DNA of 37,300 nucleotides from Devosia equisanguinis (GTDB taxonomy: Bacteria > Pseudomonadota > Alphaproteobacteria > Rhizobiales > Hyphomicrobiaceae): positions 1 to 37,300 of the forward strand of contig CAMAYR010000014.1 in the NCBI GenBank assembly GCA_945862355.1, in the 5' to 3' direction. Both the position numbers and the translations under genes were made by a program. The stretch's first letter is position 1. Every line of letters starts with the position of its first letter. The notes under the pieces were generated by a model, which worked only from the letters and a program-made list of their open reading frames with translations, did not search any database and was not told the DNA's origin. Below are positions 23,970 to 33,446 of this stretch, piece by piece.

Positions 23970-25154
23970 ATGCCATCTCGAACCTTCGCGCTGTGCCTTG
24001 CGGCGGTCGTTCTCATCGGGCCGCTTTCGCTACATCTTTTCCTGCCGGCGATTCCTGCCGTGAAGGCGGAGTTCGGCCTCAGCGAAGGCATGGCGCAACT
24101 GACCTTCACGGGCGGCATATTCGCGATGGCGGTGTCGACGCTCGTCTACGGCACGCTTTCCGACCGGTACGGCCGGCGGCCGGTGCTGCTTTCGGGGCTT
24201 GCGCTTTTCCTCGCAGGCACGGCGATCGTGGCGTTTGCCGGCAGCCTTTCGATGCTTCTGTTCGGGCGGTTGGTGCAGGCGGTCGGTGCTGGATGCGGCA
24301 CGACGCTGGTTCGCACCATCGCGCGGGACGCTTACGGCCAGGCGCAACTCGCCAAGGCGATCGCGTATCTCACCATGTTCTACACGATGGGCCCGATGAT
24401 CGCGCCCCTGATAGGTGGGGTCCTGATCGATGCCTACGGGTGGCGCGAGGCGTTCATGGCCGCATTCGTCTTTGGGGCGGTGATCACGTTCGGTGCGTGG
24501 GCGATCATCACCGAGACGCACAGCCCGAAGCCTTCGCGATTCGATGCCGTCGCGGTTCTGCGCAGCTACGTCCAGCCCTTCGGGAATGCCCGGTTCGCTG
24601 CATTCGTGCTGCAAACCGGGTTCTCGAGCGGCGTTTTCTTAACGCTGGCGGCAGCGTCTGCCGTGATCATGAAGGAGACGCTCGGTAGGCCATCGACCGA
24701 GTATGGGCTCTATTTTCTAGTGTTTCCGATCGGGTTTCTACTGGGAACCCTGGTCTCGAGCCGGCTCGTCAACCGCGTAGCGGGGGAAACGCTGGTGTTG
24801 GCCGGATCTGTGATGGCTTTCGTGACGGTGCTTGTTCAGTCGCTGTTCTTGCTGACGGGTTTCGTGAACCCGCTCGTTCTGTTCGCGCCTGGCCTCTTCC
24901 TGACGGTTGCTCAGGGGATCGCGCTACCTTCCGCTCAGTCAGGCGCCATGGCACTGGTTCCCTCGAGTGTGGGGACGGCGGCGGGTCTTGGTGTCTTCAC
25001 GCAGTTCTTCATCGGCGCGACGATTGCGCAGATCTATGGGATGATTGCGGGTGGGAGCGTCCTGGCGCTGGTTGGCGTATTGTTGGTGACGTCGGCGATC
25101 GTGCTCGGATTGGGCCTCGTCCCCTATCGCCTCGCCGCTCGCAATCAGCGCTGA
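23970..25154 (+). CDS. MFS transporter, Bcr/CflA (multidrug efflux) type
   Basis: A 394-residue major facilitator with 12 predicted helices. The MFS loop-2/3 signature is GTLSDRYGRRPVLL. The helix-4 region GRLVQAVGAGCGTTLVRTIARD and the motif-C-like MGPMIAPLIGGVLIDAYGWRE are characteristic of the Bcr/CflA drug-resistance subfamily, which are proton-coupled exporters. The substrate is unknown. The N-terminal FLPAIPAVKAEFGLSEG also fits that subfamily. The ATG at 23970 has only a weak upstream GAGG. It is divergent from the acyl-CoA synthetase. Confidence 0.9.
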   Translation: MPSRTFALCLAAVVLIGPLSLHLFLPAIPAVKAEFGLSEGMAQLTFTGGIFAMAVSTLVYGTLSDRYGRRPVLLSGLALFLAGTAIVAFAGSLSMLLFGRLVQAVGAGCGTTLVRTIARDAYGQAQLAKAIAYLTMFYTMGPMIAPLIGGVLIDAYGWREAFMAAFVFGAVITFGAWAIITETHSPKPSRFDAVAVLRSYVQPFGNARFAAFVLQTGFSSGVFLTLAAASAVIMKETLGRPSTEYGLYFLVFPIGFLLGTLVSSRLVNRVAGETLVLAGSVMAFVTVLVQSLFLLTGFVNPLVLFAPGLFLTVAQGIALPSAQSGAMALVPSSVGTAAGLGVFTQFFIGATIAQIYGMIAGGSVLALVGVLLVTSAIVLGLGLVPYRLAARNQR

Positions 25155-25169
25155 GCAGTCGACGAAAAT

Positions 25170-25194
25170 GACCCCGACCATAATGGCCGGGGTC
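25170..25194 (-). terminator. Terminator hairpin for the small minus-strand gene
   Basis: GACCCCG at 25170-25176 pairs with CGGGGTC at 25188-25194, with an inner CCAT/ATGG pairing. Read on the minus strand, the hairpin is followed by ATTTTCGTC, so it fits a Rho-independent terminator for the gene ending at 25231. It lies about 15 bases after the MFS stop and may also serve that transcript. Confidence 0.6.
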
Positions 25195-25230
25195 GAGTTG
25201 GGGGTAGAAGGACAGAAGAGAGTTGCTGGA

Positions 25231-25500
25231 TCAGGCTGCGCGCCGCATGGGGGTGCGGCACATACTTTCGGCGATCAAAGTGACTGCGCGGCTCCAGTCG
25301 ACATTGGCTGTGGCTGGCAGGTCGAAAATGCGGATCGCGTCGGCAGCCGTGCCGCCGTCGCGGAAGATTCTGGCGCAGGCCTGCCGCGCAATGCCCACCG
25401 ACTGGTGCCACTGGGCAGGATCGCGCTCCATGGCTGGAGCAATCTCGACGGGAGCGGAATTGGTAATGACCTCGAAGCTCGGTGTGCGGGTCATGGGCAT
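25231..25500 (-). CDS. Small conserved-type hypothetical protein (89 residues)
   Basis: An 89-residue basic/acidic protein with a core pattern ARQACARIFRDGGTAADAIRI followed by WSRAVTLIAESMC and a basic RTPMRRAA end. I recall this pattern in small rhizobial hypothetical proteins but know no function. There is no signal peptide or membrane helix. A terminator-like hairpin follows at 25170-25194, which supports it as a real transcript. The start is uncertain: the ATG at 25500 or 25494 fits best, and a longer start at 25578 is possible. Confidence 0.6.
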   Translation of the reverse strand: MPMTRTPSFEVITNSAPVEIAPAMERDPAQWHQSVGIARQACARIFRDGGTAADAIRIFDLPATANVDWSRAVTLIAESMCRTPMRRAA

Positions 25501-25881
25501 ATCTCGGACGTATCCCTGTGTATGTTTGACTGGATCAGGCACGGCCAGATGGAAGGCGGCAAGCGCTCCAGCGTCCATGCTCCACGACGCGAAACCTGTT
25601 CTGCGGAGCTGGAAGTTGACGCTGGGTCGGCGCTGGTAGCGCTTGCCTTTCCGGTACGGAGCGGGTGTTTACCCGCGCCGCGAAATCCTGTGCCGCGAAA
25701 ACCTGTGGCTTTGGCCGATGGGGATCAGCAGCGGGTTGCCGCTTTGCCCTGGGTCTTCGACTGTCTGGTCGTCGGCGGGGGGCCCGATTTGATCGACTGG
25801 ATCTCGATCGATTGGATCAGGGTTCCCACCACGTCACTCAACTGACGCCACGCATACTGGTTGCCGGTCATGGTGCTGGTC
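25501..25881. other. Intergenic region with short repeats
   Basis: No secure gene. It contains a small hairpin GCGGGT-GTTT-ACCCGC at about 25669-25684. An imperfect direct repeat CCGCGAAA-CCTGTG lies at about 25678-25706. Clustered GATCGA/GATC words lie at about 25785-25820. A 48-codon minus-strand frame (25725-25871) is open from an ATG, but its start lacks a convincing ribosome binding site. Confidence 0.4.
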
Positions 25882-26613
25882 TCAATGAAGCCGCCATGCC
25901 CTGGCGTGGGACGCGGGACGCTCTTCTTGACGCAACGAAACAACGCGAACTGGACCAACGCGAACTCTGACGACGCAGTCCTCGGCGACTCTGACTGAGG
26001 GGGTGAGCCCGGTGGTAGGCCCACCGTCCTCGGTCCTGCCCAACCTGCGGGACATACGCTCCGACACATTGTCCCGCGCCGCTTCGGCCAACTCCTGGAA
26101 CGCTTTACGCAACACGATACGCGGTGAGCACTCGACACCCTGCAACGCAACAATACGGGGGCCTGATCGACGCAGCCCTACGCAACCCGACGCGACCGAA
26201 CGCAACAAAACCGAACGCTGACGCAACTGACGACTGACCAACGCAACTGGACCAAGGCTGCCGACGCTCGACGCTAAACCCGCGCCTGCCAGACTCGATG
26301 ACGCCACAAACGAACGCGATACTCGAACTGAACGCGACACTGTGGGCAGAAGATTGGACGCGCCCGACTTGGAAGACTTGGAACCAGATGCCGACGCTAC
26401 GAACTCTGACGCAACTGAACGCGACGCTTTACGAACGCACGCAACCTGCGGGGACGCACAACTCGGGACTGACGCAACTGACCCCGTTACCGCGGCGATG
26501 AAATTCGCCGCATTCATTCCGGTCGAACCGGCGCCGGCAGTACGCAAACAACTCGAACTCAATCTCTGCCTGGGCGACTTGCTCGAGATCGTGGTCCTGG
26601 AGATCTCTCTCAC
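25882..26613 (-). CDS. Possible repeat-containing low-complexity protein (doubtful)
   Basis: A 243-codon frame opens at a GTG at 26613 with a good ribosome binding site (AAGGGAG, about 6 bases upstream). The predicted protein is rich in Ser, Val, Arg and Ala (for example VASEFVASASGSKSSKSGAS) and matches no family I know. The DNA is the ACGCAAC repeat cluster, whose repeats encode Val-Ala-Ser-like or Leu-Arg-like words depending on phase. The repeats do not keep one reading phase across the whole region, which argues against selection on this frame. It may be a decayed gene or not coding at all. Confidence 0.22.
   Translation of the reverse strand: MREISRTTISSKSPRQRLSSSCLRTAGAGSTGMNAANFIAAVTGSVASVPSCASPQVACVRKASRSVASEFVASASGSKSSKSGASNLLPTVSRSVRVSRSFVASSSLAGAGLASSVGSLGPVALVSRQLRQRSVLLRSVASGCVGLRRSGPRIVALQGVECSPRIVLRKAFQELAEAARDNVSERMSRRLGRTEDGGPTTGLTPSVRVAEDCVVRVRVGPVRVVSLRQEERPASHARAWRLH
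25930..26478. repeat. Cluster of ACGCAAC / ACGCGA(A)C motifs
   Basis: Exact ACGCAAC starts at 25930, 26107, 26145, 26180, 26200, 26221, 26241, 26409, 26439 and 26472. Related ACGCGAAC or ACGCGAC copies start at 25943, 25958, 26190, 26332 and 26419, with further variants (ACGCAGC 26170, ACGCGAT 26314). One run (26170, 26180, 26190, 26200) is spaced exactly 10 bases, and one pair exactly 15. All copies are on the same strand. Local GC is lower than in the flanking genes. Confidence 0.8.
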
Positions 26614-26842
26614 CCGCCGCTCCCTTACTTGCCGCTGCTTGTCCGCCGGAAGTTCGTTCCACTCGTGTTCTGCGAACGAGGGAGACTAAATAGGCCGGGC
26701 GTGGCGGAAATGTGTCACGTCCGCGCAAAATGCGGAACCTTCCACATATTGCAGCTTGACACCGGAATTTATCGCAAATTGCGCCCGCTTCGAGCGGAGT
26801 GATCGAGAGGGATCAACCTATTGATAAAACATAAAATAATAA
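26614..26842. other. AT-richer intergenic region
   Basis: About 230 bases, clearly AT-richer than the rest of the window near 26815-26860. It holds a TTGACA at about 26756 on the plus strand without a convincing -10 partner, and a short palindrome GGAACCTTCC at about 26732-26741. No gene is seen. Confidence 0.4.
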
Positions 26843-27370
26843 TCAAAGGTAGTGTTTTTGATCGCGACAGGAGATGGCCGCCTTGAGCAGGCCTGTGGAC
26901 AACAATAGGCTGGCGCCAACGTTCCATCCGGCAAAGGAGAGGCCCAGGAAGCGCCAGGGAGCTTCGTCGCAACGGACGATTCTCGGCGTATTCTTCAAGG
27001 ATTCCAATAGATTGCCGGATATCTGGAGGCCGGTTCCACCGGCAGAGCAGGTTTCGGGGCCGAGCCAGAAGCCCCATTCGACGCCGGCGTGGTAGGCGCC
27101 GAGCGCTCCATTGGCTAGGAATGCCAGGGCGACGAAGCTGAATATGACCGCTGCCGGACGGGGATGGCTGGCGCTCAGCAGTACCAGACCCAGGAAGATG
27201 GCCGGCACGCCGAAGTAGTAGGCCCAGCGCTGTTGGAGGCACAGCGGGCAGGGCTGGATGCCGCCGATGTGCTGATAGCCGAGCGCGGTCAGAATCGCTG
27301 CAGTGGACACGAACAGGGCCAATGCGCCCCACTTGTATGCGGTACTGCCTGATATACGCTGCCGCAACAT
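26843..27370 (-). CDS. DsbB-like disulfide bond formation protein
   Basis: A 175-residue inner-membrane protein with four helices. The first periplasmic loop follows GYQHIGGIQPCPLC (C41 and C44, the CxxC pair), then QQRWAYY. The second loop holds C108 (GPETCSAGG) and C134 (RIVRCDEAPWRF). This four-cysteine arrangement is that of DsbB, which reoxidises DsbA and passes electrons to quinone. No dsbA is nearby. The ATG at 27370 is chosen to begin just before the first helix; its ribosome binding site is weak. It follows the DedA-like gene by 26 bases, so the two are probably one operon. Confidence 0.88.
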   Translation of the reverse strand: MLRQRISGSTAYKWGALALFVSTAAILTALGYQHIGGIQPCPLCLQQRWAYYFGVPAIFLGLVLLSASHPRPAAVIFSFVALAFLANGALGAYHAGVEWGFWLGPETCSAGGTGLQISGNLLESLKNTPRIVRCDEAPWRFLGLSFAGWNVGASLLLSTGLLKAAISCRDQKHYL

Positions 27371-31094: not shown

Positions 31095-33446
31095 ATGAGG
31101 GATGGCGTGGAAGCTAAAAGGGTGATCGGCAAGCCGGTGCGACGCATCGAGGATGCGGCGCTGCTGGCGGGCAAGGCGCGTTTCGTCGACGACCTCGAGC
31201 AGCCCGGCATGCTGCATGCCGCTTTTCTGCGGAGCCCGCACGCCCATGCGTTGATCCGCGGTGTCGACACGACAGCCGCGAAGGCAGCACCCGGAGTTGC
31301 TGCAGTTCTGACCATCGACGATCTGCGCCGCGTGCTGGTCGACGACCGCTTGCCGTTGCAGTTCCGGGCGGCCAAGCTGCCCCCCGACGTGACGCCTTTC
31401 GTGCTGGCGCGCGAGGAGGTGGCGTTCGTCGGCGAGGCCGTGGCGGTGGTGCTGGCGGATAGTCGTTACGCCGCGGAGGATGCGGCAGCCCTGATCGAGG
31501 TCGACTACGAGGCGCTGGCTGCGGTCTCGGATTGCCGGGCTGCGGCTCGTCCGGGTGCGCCGCAGGCGCGCTGTGTGCGCGCCTCGAACGTGCTTCTCAC
31601 CCTGCACCAGTCCTACGGCGACATCGCCGAGGCATTCCAGAACGCGCCGCATCGGGCGAGCGTCAGCCTGAAGCAGCATCGCGGTGTCGCCCATTCGATC
31701 GAGGGTCGCGGCGCGCTGGCCGCCTACGACGCCAACGAGGACCGGCTCACGCTGTGGTCGTCGACACAGCTCGCCCACGAGTTGCGTGCGTTCCTGATGA
31801 CTTTGCTGGGGCGCGACGAGAACCAGCTTCGCGTCGTGGCGCCCGAGGTCGGCGGCGGCTTCGGCACCAAGTTCGTGATGTACCCCGAGGAGGTGGTCGT
31901 CGCCACCGCCAGCCTTCTCCTCGAGCGCCCGGTCAAATGGATCGAGGACCGGCGCGAGCATTTCCTGTCCGCCGTGCAGGAGCGCGATCAGTATTGGGAT
32001 CTCGAGGTAGCTTTCGAGACGGACGGTCGCCTGCGCGGGGTCCGCGGCCACATGATCCACGACAACGGCGCCTACACGCCGCAGGGCACGAACCTGCCCT
32101 ACAACGCATCGACCGCGCTGCCCGGGCCCTACATACTTCCGGCCTACGATCTCGAGGTGTCGATCGTCGAGACCAACAAGGTGCCGACAATGCCGGTTCG
32201 TGGTGCTGGCTATCCCGAGGGCGCGTTCGCGATGGAGCGGCTGCTCGACCGCATCGCCGACGAGCTCGGCATCGACCGCGCCGAGGTGCGGCGGCGAAAT
32301 CTCGTCAGGCCCGAGCAGTTGCCGTATGTCACGCCGCTCAAGACGCGTGCCGGGACGCCGATCACGCTGGACAGCGGCGACTACCCCGGCTGCCTCGAAC
32401 AGGCGCTGACCGCCATCGATTATGCGGGATTTTCCACGCGGCGGCGGGCGGCGATGGCCGAAGGTCGTCATCTCGGCATCGGCATCGGCGTGGGCGCGAA
32501 GGGTACCGGCCGAGGGCCGTTCGAGAGCGGTATCGTTCGTGTCGGCCGGTCGGGACGGGTATCGGTCTATACGGGCGCGATGCCGATGGGGCAGGGCATC
32601 AAGACCGCCCTCGCCCAGATCTGCGCCGAGCAACTCGGCATCGAGGCGAGCGACGTCTCCGTCATCGCTGGCGATACGTCGGTGATCCCCTATGGCCAGG
32701 GCGGCTTCGCGAGCCGGCAGACGGTGACGGCAGGCTCGGCGGTTCACATGGCCGCCAAAGCCGTGCGCGAGAAGGCGATCGACGTCGCCGCGTTGCTGTT
32801 GGAGACGAACGCGGGCGATCTCGTTCTCAGGGAAGGACGCGTCGAGGTGGCCGGCGCGCCGGGCAGCGGCATGAGCCTGCGCGACATCGCCGAGGCCGTG
32901 GCCGGCGTTCCGGGATATGCACTGCCGGGCAACTTCGAGCCGGGCCTCGAGAGCACCCAGAGCTTCCTGCCGAGCGCGCTCACCTACGGTTTCGGCTGTC
33001 ACGTCGTAGAAGTCGAGGTCGACCCCGAAACGCTTGCTGTGCGCATCGTCCGCTACGTCGTGGTCAACGACAGTGGCCGCGTCATCAATCCACTGATCGT
33101 GAAGGGCCAGCTCGTCGGCGGCGCGGTGCACGGCATCGGTAACGCGCTGTACGAGTGGATGGCCTACAGCGACGAGGCCCAGCCGTTGTCGACGACGCTG
33201 GCCGAGTACACCATGGTGACCGCGATGGAGGTGCCCTCGATCGAGGTCATCATGTCGGAGCATCCCTCGCCGCTGAACCCGCTCGGTGTGAAAGGCGTCG
33301 GCGAGGCCGGCTGCGTCCCCGCTGCCGCCGCCGTCGTCTCCGCTGTCGAGAGCGCGCTGGCCGAGCGTGGGCTGCGGATCGGCGAGTATCCGATGATGCC
33401 GGGGCGGCTTCATGCATGGCTGGCCGAGCGACCGGCAGCGGACTGA
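31095..33446 (+). CDS. Xanthine dehydrogenase/CoxL-type molybdopterin-binding subunit
   Basis: This is the large catalytic subunit of a molybdenum hydroxylase (xanthine oxidase/CO dehydrogenase large-subunit family), about 783 residues. PVRRIEDAALLAGKARFVDD opens the first domain and APEVGGGFGTK is the molybdopterin-binding glycine motif. MPMGQGIKTALAQI follows, and the catalytic Glu is E737 in GVKGVGEAG. The loop that in CO dehydrogenase carries the selenium/copper cysteine reads VRGAGYPEGAFAMERL, with no Cys, so this is not form I CODH; the substrate is unknown. Start uncertain: ATG 31095 or GTG 31107 (which has GAGGG upstream). No FAD or [2Fe-2S] subunit gene is adjacent. Confidence 0.9.
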   Translation: MRDGVEAKRVIGKPVRRIEDAALLAGKARFVDDLEQPGMLHAAFLRSPHAHALIRGVDTTAAKAAPGVAAVLTIDDLRRVLVDDRLPLQFRAAKLPPDVTPFVLAREEVAFVGEAVAVVLADSRYAAEDAAALIEVDYEALAAVSDCRAAARPGAPQARCVRASNVLLTLHQSYGDIAEAFQNAPHRASVSLKQHRGVAHSIEGRGALAAYDANEDRLTLWSSTQLAHELRAFLMTLLGRDENQLRVVAPEVGGGFGTKFVMYPEEVVVATASLLLERPVKWIEDRREHFLSAVQERDQYWDLEVAFETDGRLRGVRGHMIHDNGAYTPQGTNLPYNASTALPGPYILPAYDLEVSIVETNKVPTMPVRGAGYPEGAFAMERLLDRIADELGIDRAEVRRRNLVRPEQLPYVTPLKTRAGTPITLDSGDYPGCLEQALTAIDYAGFSTRRRAAMAEGRHLGIGIGVGAKGTGRGPFESGIVRVGRSGRVSVYTGAMPMGQGIKTALAQICAEQLGIEASDVSVIAGDTSVIPYGQGGFASRQTVTAGSAVHMAAKAVREKAIDVAALLLETNAGDLVLREGRVEVAGAPGSGMSLRDIAEAVAGVPGYALPGNFEPGLESTQSFLPSALTYGFGCHVVEVEVDPETLAVRIVRYVVVNDSGRVINPLIVKGQLVGGAVHGIGNALYEWMAYSDEAQPLSTTLAEYTMVTAMEVPSIEVIMSEHPSPLNPLGVKGVGEAGCVPAAAAVVSAVESALAERGLRIGEYPMMPGRLHAWLAERPAAD

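Follow-up and report, generated by a model that had tools for sequence, protein, structure and literature searches.

A conserved one-strand array of GTTGCGT repeats between dsbB and a small gene in Hyphomicrobium relatives that may act within a leader RNA

What could require one seven-base word to be repeated, always in the same orientation, in the gap between two genes? In the window, the 37,300-nucleotide stretch of Devosia equisanguinis DNA analyzed here, ACGCAAC was found at 25930, 26107, 26145, 26180, 26200, 26221, 26241, 26409, 26439, and 26472, always on the plus strand, and the 549 bases that contain them (25930 to 26478) include 30 copies of ACGC and five related words of the form ACGCGA(A)C. 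This recount agreed with the original prediction of ten exact heptamers and at least five relatives in one orientation. The window has an eleventh ACGCAAC at 31781 on the minus strand, a total that is unremarkable, as whole-window shuffles averaged 5.26 copies and 4 of 100 reached 11; the anomaly is the clustering on one strand and not the number of copies in the window. The 493 copies (244 plus 249) in the 5.05-Mb genome predict approximately 0.05 ACGCAAC in the array span, counting both strands, and triplets of the heptamer with gaps of no more than 31 nt occur in the genome at this locus only (five overlapping places). Read from the other strand as GTTGCGT, the ten copies compare to a mean of 0.3 and a maximum of 3 in 2,000 shuffles of the window's interval between dsbB and the downstream gene, so the predicted chance expectation of well below one copy held by either measure. 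The array is also marked by a strand skew: its minus strand is rich in G and T and poor in A, and the plus strand, which carries ACGCAAC, is A/C-rich. The lower GC content that had been proposed for the region proved a weak claim, with values of 0.60 to 0.66 along the array versus 0.59 to 0.65 in most adjoining segments.

Conservation of the locus

The array lies between two minus-strand genes, as had been described, and the features of the locus are all on that strand. Upstream is a gene at 26843 to 27370 (start taken from the open reading frame; relatives located by tblastn) which we take to be dsbB, encoding the disulfide bond oxidase DsbB. The array itself has GTTGCGT copies at 25930 to 26478 and G[CA]GT units from approximately 25911 to 26557. 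Downstream, at 25231 to 25494 with an uncertain start codon, is an unnamed gene whose small product, a three-helix protein, has approximately 70 to 90 amino acids and the motif CARIFRDGG. This protein matched no Pfam (E < 0.2), NCBIfam, or PHROG family and had no match in the PDB by fold (E < 4.3) or by sequence (E < 0.8); its AlphaFold model had a mean pLDDT of 77.7, with 75 to 96 in the helical blocks. An intrinsic-terminator-like hairpin follows the gene at 25170 to 25194 but is weak, because the consensus scan gave 2 sites versus 1.8 in shuffles.

The family of Hyphomicrobium, Filomicrobium, and their relatives was represented by 103 genomes, of which 91 carried the small gene. Ninety of these, with 24 genera in the final set, were analyzed, and one (G003) was excluded because its contig stops before the gap. 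The tblastn search placed dsbB ahead of the gap in 76 of the 90 stretches and did not find it in the other 14 fetched stretches, for which up to 1,300 nt preceding the small gene was used as the gap. The array belongs to a conserved non-coding locus that precedes the small unnamed gene and, in at least 76 of the 90 genomes, follows dsbB, with its parts in this order on one strand: a promoter region, a pentamer-periodic array, a small open reading frame (ORF) (64 of 90), a structured element termed R1, and the unnamed gene. Two contigs (L018 and L019, from genomes G003 and G001) stop inside the interval, one approximately 150 nt before the small gene and the other near the end of the interval at which the LexA box lies, a pattern that would fit an assembly break at the array. 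By title and abstract, no paper listed in a literature search treats this locus, although such a paper may exist.

Read toward the small gene, TTGCGT occurs 615 times in the forward and 15 times in the reverse direction in the 90 gaps, versus 61 and 49 times in the flanks of the same loci. The forward excess was present in 89 of the gaps, and the last (G035) has TTGCGT in neither direction. Every one of the 24 genera has the full GTTGCGT, as do 88 of the 90 genomes, with 469 forward and 2 reverse copies. Gaps from 25 chosen genomes contain 22 to 60 G[CA]GT units on the sense strand versus 2 to 15 on the complement, with GCGT commoner than GAGT in array contexts (1686 versus 655). One genome (G053, locus L107) has 25 perfect tandem copies of GAGTT within its array, at gap offset 329, and two others have 7 (G049) and 5 (G011). 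A DNA search with positions 26480 to 26860, beside the array, gave matches in the window's own genus alone (3 of 103 genomes), and a conserved block, CGTATGTCC..GGTT, was limited to two genera (2 genomes of g1 and 15 of g24) and had no third-position excess of changes (33/46/46 and 32/31/27 by codon position). Beyond the genus, conservation is visible in motif, structure, and position rather than in alignable DNA at 26480 to 26860.

Clusters of three heptamers were sought in 297 genomes of the order, and 16 had one: 8 of the 13 genomes within the family and 8 of the 284 outside it. As a control, the reversed pattern was found in no family genome and in 5 genomes of other families, so the excess outside the family is small, and these counts argue only weakly for a genome-wide role of the heptamer there. 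In three loci from other families (L202, L206, and L207), short arrays of GTTGCGT, GTGGCGT, or GTCGCGT were seen by eye no more than approximately 40 nt past stop codons, followed in L202 and L207 by terminator-like hairpins. The RNA word proposed for the main locus may recur in these arrays, which may also be partly due to chance, since the reversed control occurred in 5 genomes. A second short GTTGCGT cluster, apart from the main locus, was seen in genome G009 (L195, contig 1, near 659083).

Spacing, folding, and coding capacity of the array

Distances between units were compared to those of jittered positions in one genome per genus for 23 of the 24 genera; g9 was absent because three microsatellite-bearing genomes had been removed. 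Distances from GCGT to GCGT peaked at 5, 10, 15, 20, and 30 nt; the peaks had shoulders at ±1 nt, and a period of 5.0 gave a z score of 7.1 for GCGT and 8.4 for G[CA]GT. Among GCGT distances in these 23 genomes, periods of 3 and 10.5 gave z scores of -0.7 and 0.0. Multiples of 5 accounted for 247 of 764 GCGT pairs, or 32% versus 20% in shuffles; none of 200 shuffles was as high, the best reaching 31.9%, close to the observed value, with few pairs in the shuffles. Short G[CA]GT spacings numbered 17 at 4 nt, 83 at 5, 67 at 6, 35 at 7, and 26 at 8.

These results support neither codon nor DNA-helix phasing of the array, and the helical-turn phasing originally proposed for the copies finds no support across genera in the z score for a 10.5 period. 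The 10- and 15-base spacings on which it had been built are two and three steps of the 5-nt period. The ladder of four copies at 26170, 26180, 26190, and 26200 is real for ACGC, although ACGCAGC and ACGCGAC make up half of it; the 15-base spacing of one pair is present at 25943 and 25958. A single reading phase from 26241 onward is kept by the exact heptamers but not by the relatives lying between them.

Predicted folds gave no sign of an exposed motif. On the sense strand its predicted unpaired fraction was 0.30 versus 0.41 for matched 6-mers, lower in 24 of 24 genomes, and the antisense copy had a value of 0.61. The folding energy of the array did not differ from that of shuffles (mean z of +0.36, with 14 of 21 above 0). 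As far as these predictions go, the exposed-motif test went against the idea that the array is a platform for a protein.

Coding capacity was examined by codon position in 44 aligned genomes from four genera. Changes in the array were spread evenly over positions 1, 2, and 3 (84/80/80, 101/105/109, 83/72/76, and 92/95/85), and the segment length was not divisible by three in 6 of 21, 3 of 8, 3 of 7, and 6 of 8 genomes. No Pfam family matched the array as a repeat protein. A protein-repeat gene in the array was rejected, as there was no third-position excess and insertions and deletions did not preserve the frame in these four genera.

Elements on either side of the array

In the promoter region, GAAC-N7-GAAC was found on the sense strand in 39 of the 90 genomes and 18 of the 24 genera, and in 29 of these genomes it lies 150 to 260 nt past dsbB. 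The window is included, with a predicted LexA (SOS) box, GAACACGAGTGGAAC, at 26656 to 26670. The other orientation was present in 13 of the 90 genomes, once at 150 to 260 nt from dsbB, and the background for both orientations was 0.098 per 1,400 nt. Two published sources give the alphaproteobacterial LexA motif as GTTC-N7-GTTC (PMC3323433, PMC8565304), which is this box. As a control, GAAC-N7-GAAC was found upstream of lexA in 10 of 10 chosen family genomes and upstream of recA in 1 of 10, and the lexA gene of the window's genome carries the box GAACACGTAAAGAAC. At the array locus, no box was found in 51 of the 90 genomes, including all those of g7, g22, g23, g24, g26, and g33 and 8 of 9 of g21; g7, g22, g23, g24, and g26 lacked it in all 41 genomes. 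The Hyphomicrobium-like genera are among those without the box. In box-less genera, lexA still has its own box where tested. Since whole genera are without the box, LexA control of the locus is not universal. In the 18 genera that have it, we infer with good support that LexA represses this promoter, and DNA damage would therefore raise the transcript.

A second word near the start of the gap resembles the DnaA box consensus, TT[AG]TNCACA. It was found on either strand in 41 of the 90 genomes versus a background of 0.0065 per 600 nt (an approximately 70-fold excess); the copy in the window, TTGTCCACA, lies inside the end of dsbB at 26894 to 26902 on the minus strand. The word, at or just past the dsbB end, is commoner in genomes without a LexA box. 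Counted in slightly different intervals, 27 genomes had the LexA box without the DnaA word, 33 the DnaA word alone, 11 both, and 19 neither, a negative association (Fisher p = 0.0015) that ignores relatedness. The DnaA words prompted us to consider an origin of replication at the locus, which was rejected for the genomes tested by GC skew and by the distance to hemE, the usual neighbor of the alphaproteobacterial origin. In seven genomes, 114 to 494 kb separate the locus from hemE. In G054, the one genome profiled for skew, both the GC-skew step and hemE are at 3.35 Mb and the locus is at 3.46 Mb. The replication site that the original prediction had listed among its possibilities was thus not found at the locus in the genomes tested.

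Between the array and R1 in the window is a small ORF of 48 amino acids (MTGNQYAWRQLSDVVGTL...; 25725 to 25871, minus strand) with a peptide resembling W-R-x-L-x-D-V-V. Such a peptide was found on the sense strand in 64 of the 90 gaps and 16 of the 24 genera and on the antisense strand in 0 of the 90. Changes in the small-ORF segment by codon position (70/60/86, 35/24/47, 23/22/37, and 23/17/32) were most frequent at the third position in each of the four genera, but the segment length was not divisible by three in 5 of 21, 4 of 8, and 5 of 7 genomes of three genera, perhaps because the tested segment extends before the start codon. Because the peptide and the third-position excess stand beside these off-frame lengths, the small ORF is likely rather than proven.

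R1, a structured RNA element of approximately 90 to 97 nt, lies at 25558 to 25647 on the minus strand and has a 17-bp outer helix and an 8-bp inner hairpin. The model was built from 32 sequences picked by a shared loop word, in which 95% of cells were paired and 15 of 25 pairs had double changes, versus 26 to 51% pairing in slid controls. It gave sense-strand matches at all 90 loci, none weaker than E = 4e-6, and 31 weaker matches were the same hairpins on the opposite strand. A second set was drawn from the 58 loci outside the model; five duplicates of model sequences were dropped, and the remaining 53, located by the model and aligned blind to structure, had 92.0% of cells paired and double changes in 21 of 24 pairs (slid controls, 28 to 48%). 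Rfam gave no match at its cutoff for window positions 25100 to 27000, the loci of eight relatives, or the L066 gap, the best subthreshold match having an E value of 1.2. Across the 297 genomes of the order, strict filters retained R1 in 12 of the 13 genomes within the family and in 4 of the 284 outside it.

The small gene is also present in 20 of the 284 other-family genomes of the order. In 18 stretches around it from other families, R1 was found at E < 1e-5 in 6, and dsbB was upstream in 11 of the 16 examined. A sense excess of GCGT of at least two-fold was present in families f9, f16, f18, f25, f39, and f46 and absent in f11 and f48. By eye, R1 ends some tens of nucleotides before the start codon of the small gene in many genomes, and in one other-family locus (L285) a hairpin and a T-run follow an R1-like hairpin. 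A search for an intrinsic terminator between R1 and the small gene gave a match in 5 of 45 stretches, all at least 92 nt past R1 and taken as being inside the small gene. With no terminator between the two, R1 was treated as a leader and not as a transcript end, and it is probably a cis-regulatory domain of the small gene.

A proposed leader RNA and its alternatives

The layout of the locus recalls E. coli tisB, in which a LexA box and a long untranslated leader precede a very small ORF, and also dinQ. The locus differs from both in that its small ORF is not membrane-helix-like by eye and its box is absent from 6 of the 24 genera; the likeness is in the layout.

Two well-known kinds of RNA with many protein contacts were compared to the array. 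A TRAP site consists of 11 GAG or UAG triplets separated by 2 or 3 nt, or 5 to 6 nt center to center (PMC3913778). The site in the Bacillus trp leader resembles the array in having many short G-rich units at 5- to 6-nt steps with variable spacers in an operon leader, and (G/U)AG is somewhat enriched on the sense strand (29.6 per kb versus 18.2 and 24.0 in the flanks). The array differs in being longer and gapped and in having GCGU, rather than GAG or UAG, as its commonest unit. The TRAP gene (PF02081) was found in 0 of 20 genomes, with a positive Bacillus subtilis control. A TRAP-binding leader was rejected: the spacing fits, but the triplet identity does not (GCGT over GAGT) and the protein is absent from the 20 genomes. 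CsrB/RsmZ-type sponge RNAs (PMC4347634) resemble the array in repeating a protein-recognition word over a few hundred nucleotides of RNA, whereas the array looks like part of an operon leader rather than a separate small RNA. A CsrA sponge would carry GGA, preferably in hairpin loops, but on the sense strand GGA was no commoner in the gaps than in the flanks (12.4 versus 12.8 per kb), and a CsrA-type sponge was rejected on this and on the lack of array structure beyond that of shuffles.

A protein-binding array, one of the possibilities originally raised, is still the best class of answer, with the evidence favoring a minus-strand RNA over a duplex-DNA site because of the 615-to-15 asymmetry, the period of 5 rather than 10.5 nt, and the position between the LexA box, where present (39 of 90 genomes), and R1. 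An RNA function appears most likely given strand, period, position, and the RNA structure downstream, and the repeats probably form the front part of an RNA that is controlled by DNA damage in many family members. We infer, less certainly, that the array acts in an untranslated leader RNA, where it may be a docking strip for an RNA-binding protein. Because its spacing is TRAP-like but its unit is different and TRAP is absent, we propose a platform for another oligomeric protein. In full, the array would belong to the untranslated leader of an often SOS-type operon and offer an oligomeric RNA-binding protein a platform spaced in pentamers, a tentative reading to which we assign a probability of roughly 0.45. 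LexA would repress the promoter, and DNA damage would lead to more transcript. The G[CA]GU units, interrupted and 5 or sometimes 6 nt apart, would then offer repeated contacts for the protein through multi-site binding in the manner of TRAP or CsrA RNAs. Binding could regulate both the small ORF and the gene that follows R1; alternatively, the abundant leader could titrate the protein.

The main rival is that the leader is a long transcribed spacer in which GU-rich pentamers arose by slippage on an A-poor strand, with selection acting on the promoter, the small ORF, and R1 instead. It owes this rank to the genome with (GAGTT)25, and the shorter runs, (GAGTT)7 and (GAGTT)5, and the absence of a secondary-structure signal in the array fit it as well. 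Slippage alone, however, would not yield mixed GCGT and GAGT units, the same heptamer is found in 24 of 24 genera while the spacers vary, and the 5-nt period persists in one genome per genus without the microsatellite genomes. We regard this origin as possible but unlikely. The platform reading can also be extended: the order may have an undescribed oligomeric RNA-binding protein, separate from TRAP, around which leader RNA is wrapped through its G[CA]GU pentamers. The array would be the main hub of this protein, turned on through LexA in many genera and perhaps linked to DnaA in the others, with the short arrays behind stop codons elsewhere as potential targets. This extension is speculative, and we think that it probably does not hold.

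Quite unlikely, in our judgment, is a device that sets transcription speed, in which close pause sites slow the polymerase or G-rich, Rho-resistant RNA lets it escape termination. The pause consensus has pyrimidine-G steps with a G approximately 10 nt upstream; the 5-nt period does place a G 10 nt before many such steps, and the sense RNA has more G than C in most arrays. Spacings of 15 and 20 nt are favored about equally with 10, so the period is 5 and is not specific to pausing geometry. We consider it improbable that the array binds protein as duplex DNA for replication control or segregation, proximal to the origin and joined to a DnaA box. The DnaA-box-like word in 41 of the 90 genomes and the location 114 to 494 kb from hemE point that way, but 10.5-bp phasing is absent, the G054 skew step is at hemE instead, and the strict strand bias and downstream RNA structure would go unexplained. 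An antisense role is highly improbable. In such a role, the A/C-rich, unstructured plus-strand RNA, with its predicted unpaired value of 0.61, would load Rho and stop read-through toward dsbB from the convergent gene at 23970 to 25154, which does point at the array. Rho sites are degenerate and could not account for a fixed heptamer, a 5-nt period, or a LexA box and R1 on the opposite strand. Finally, we give almost no credence to a decayed or frame-shifted repeat protein gene, as had also been suggested: the minus-strand ORF at 25882 to 26613 stays open across the array and 20 of 21 g24 gaps have frames of at least 90 codons, but the even codon-position changes in four genera, off-frame lengths, and lack of a Pfam match stand against it.

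An RNA-type locus with a strongly covarying structure and a pentamer-spaced array, both foreign to the family libraries used here, is thus kept throughout a family to which Hyphomicrobium and Filomicrobium strains belong, and R1 is a candidate new RNA family whatever the array does. If a protein reads the array, the array would be bait for a new class of bacterial RNA-binding protein, and if the LexA link is true, the locus would add an RNA-level layer to the alphaproteobacterial DNA-damage response.
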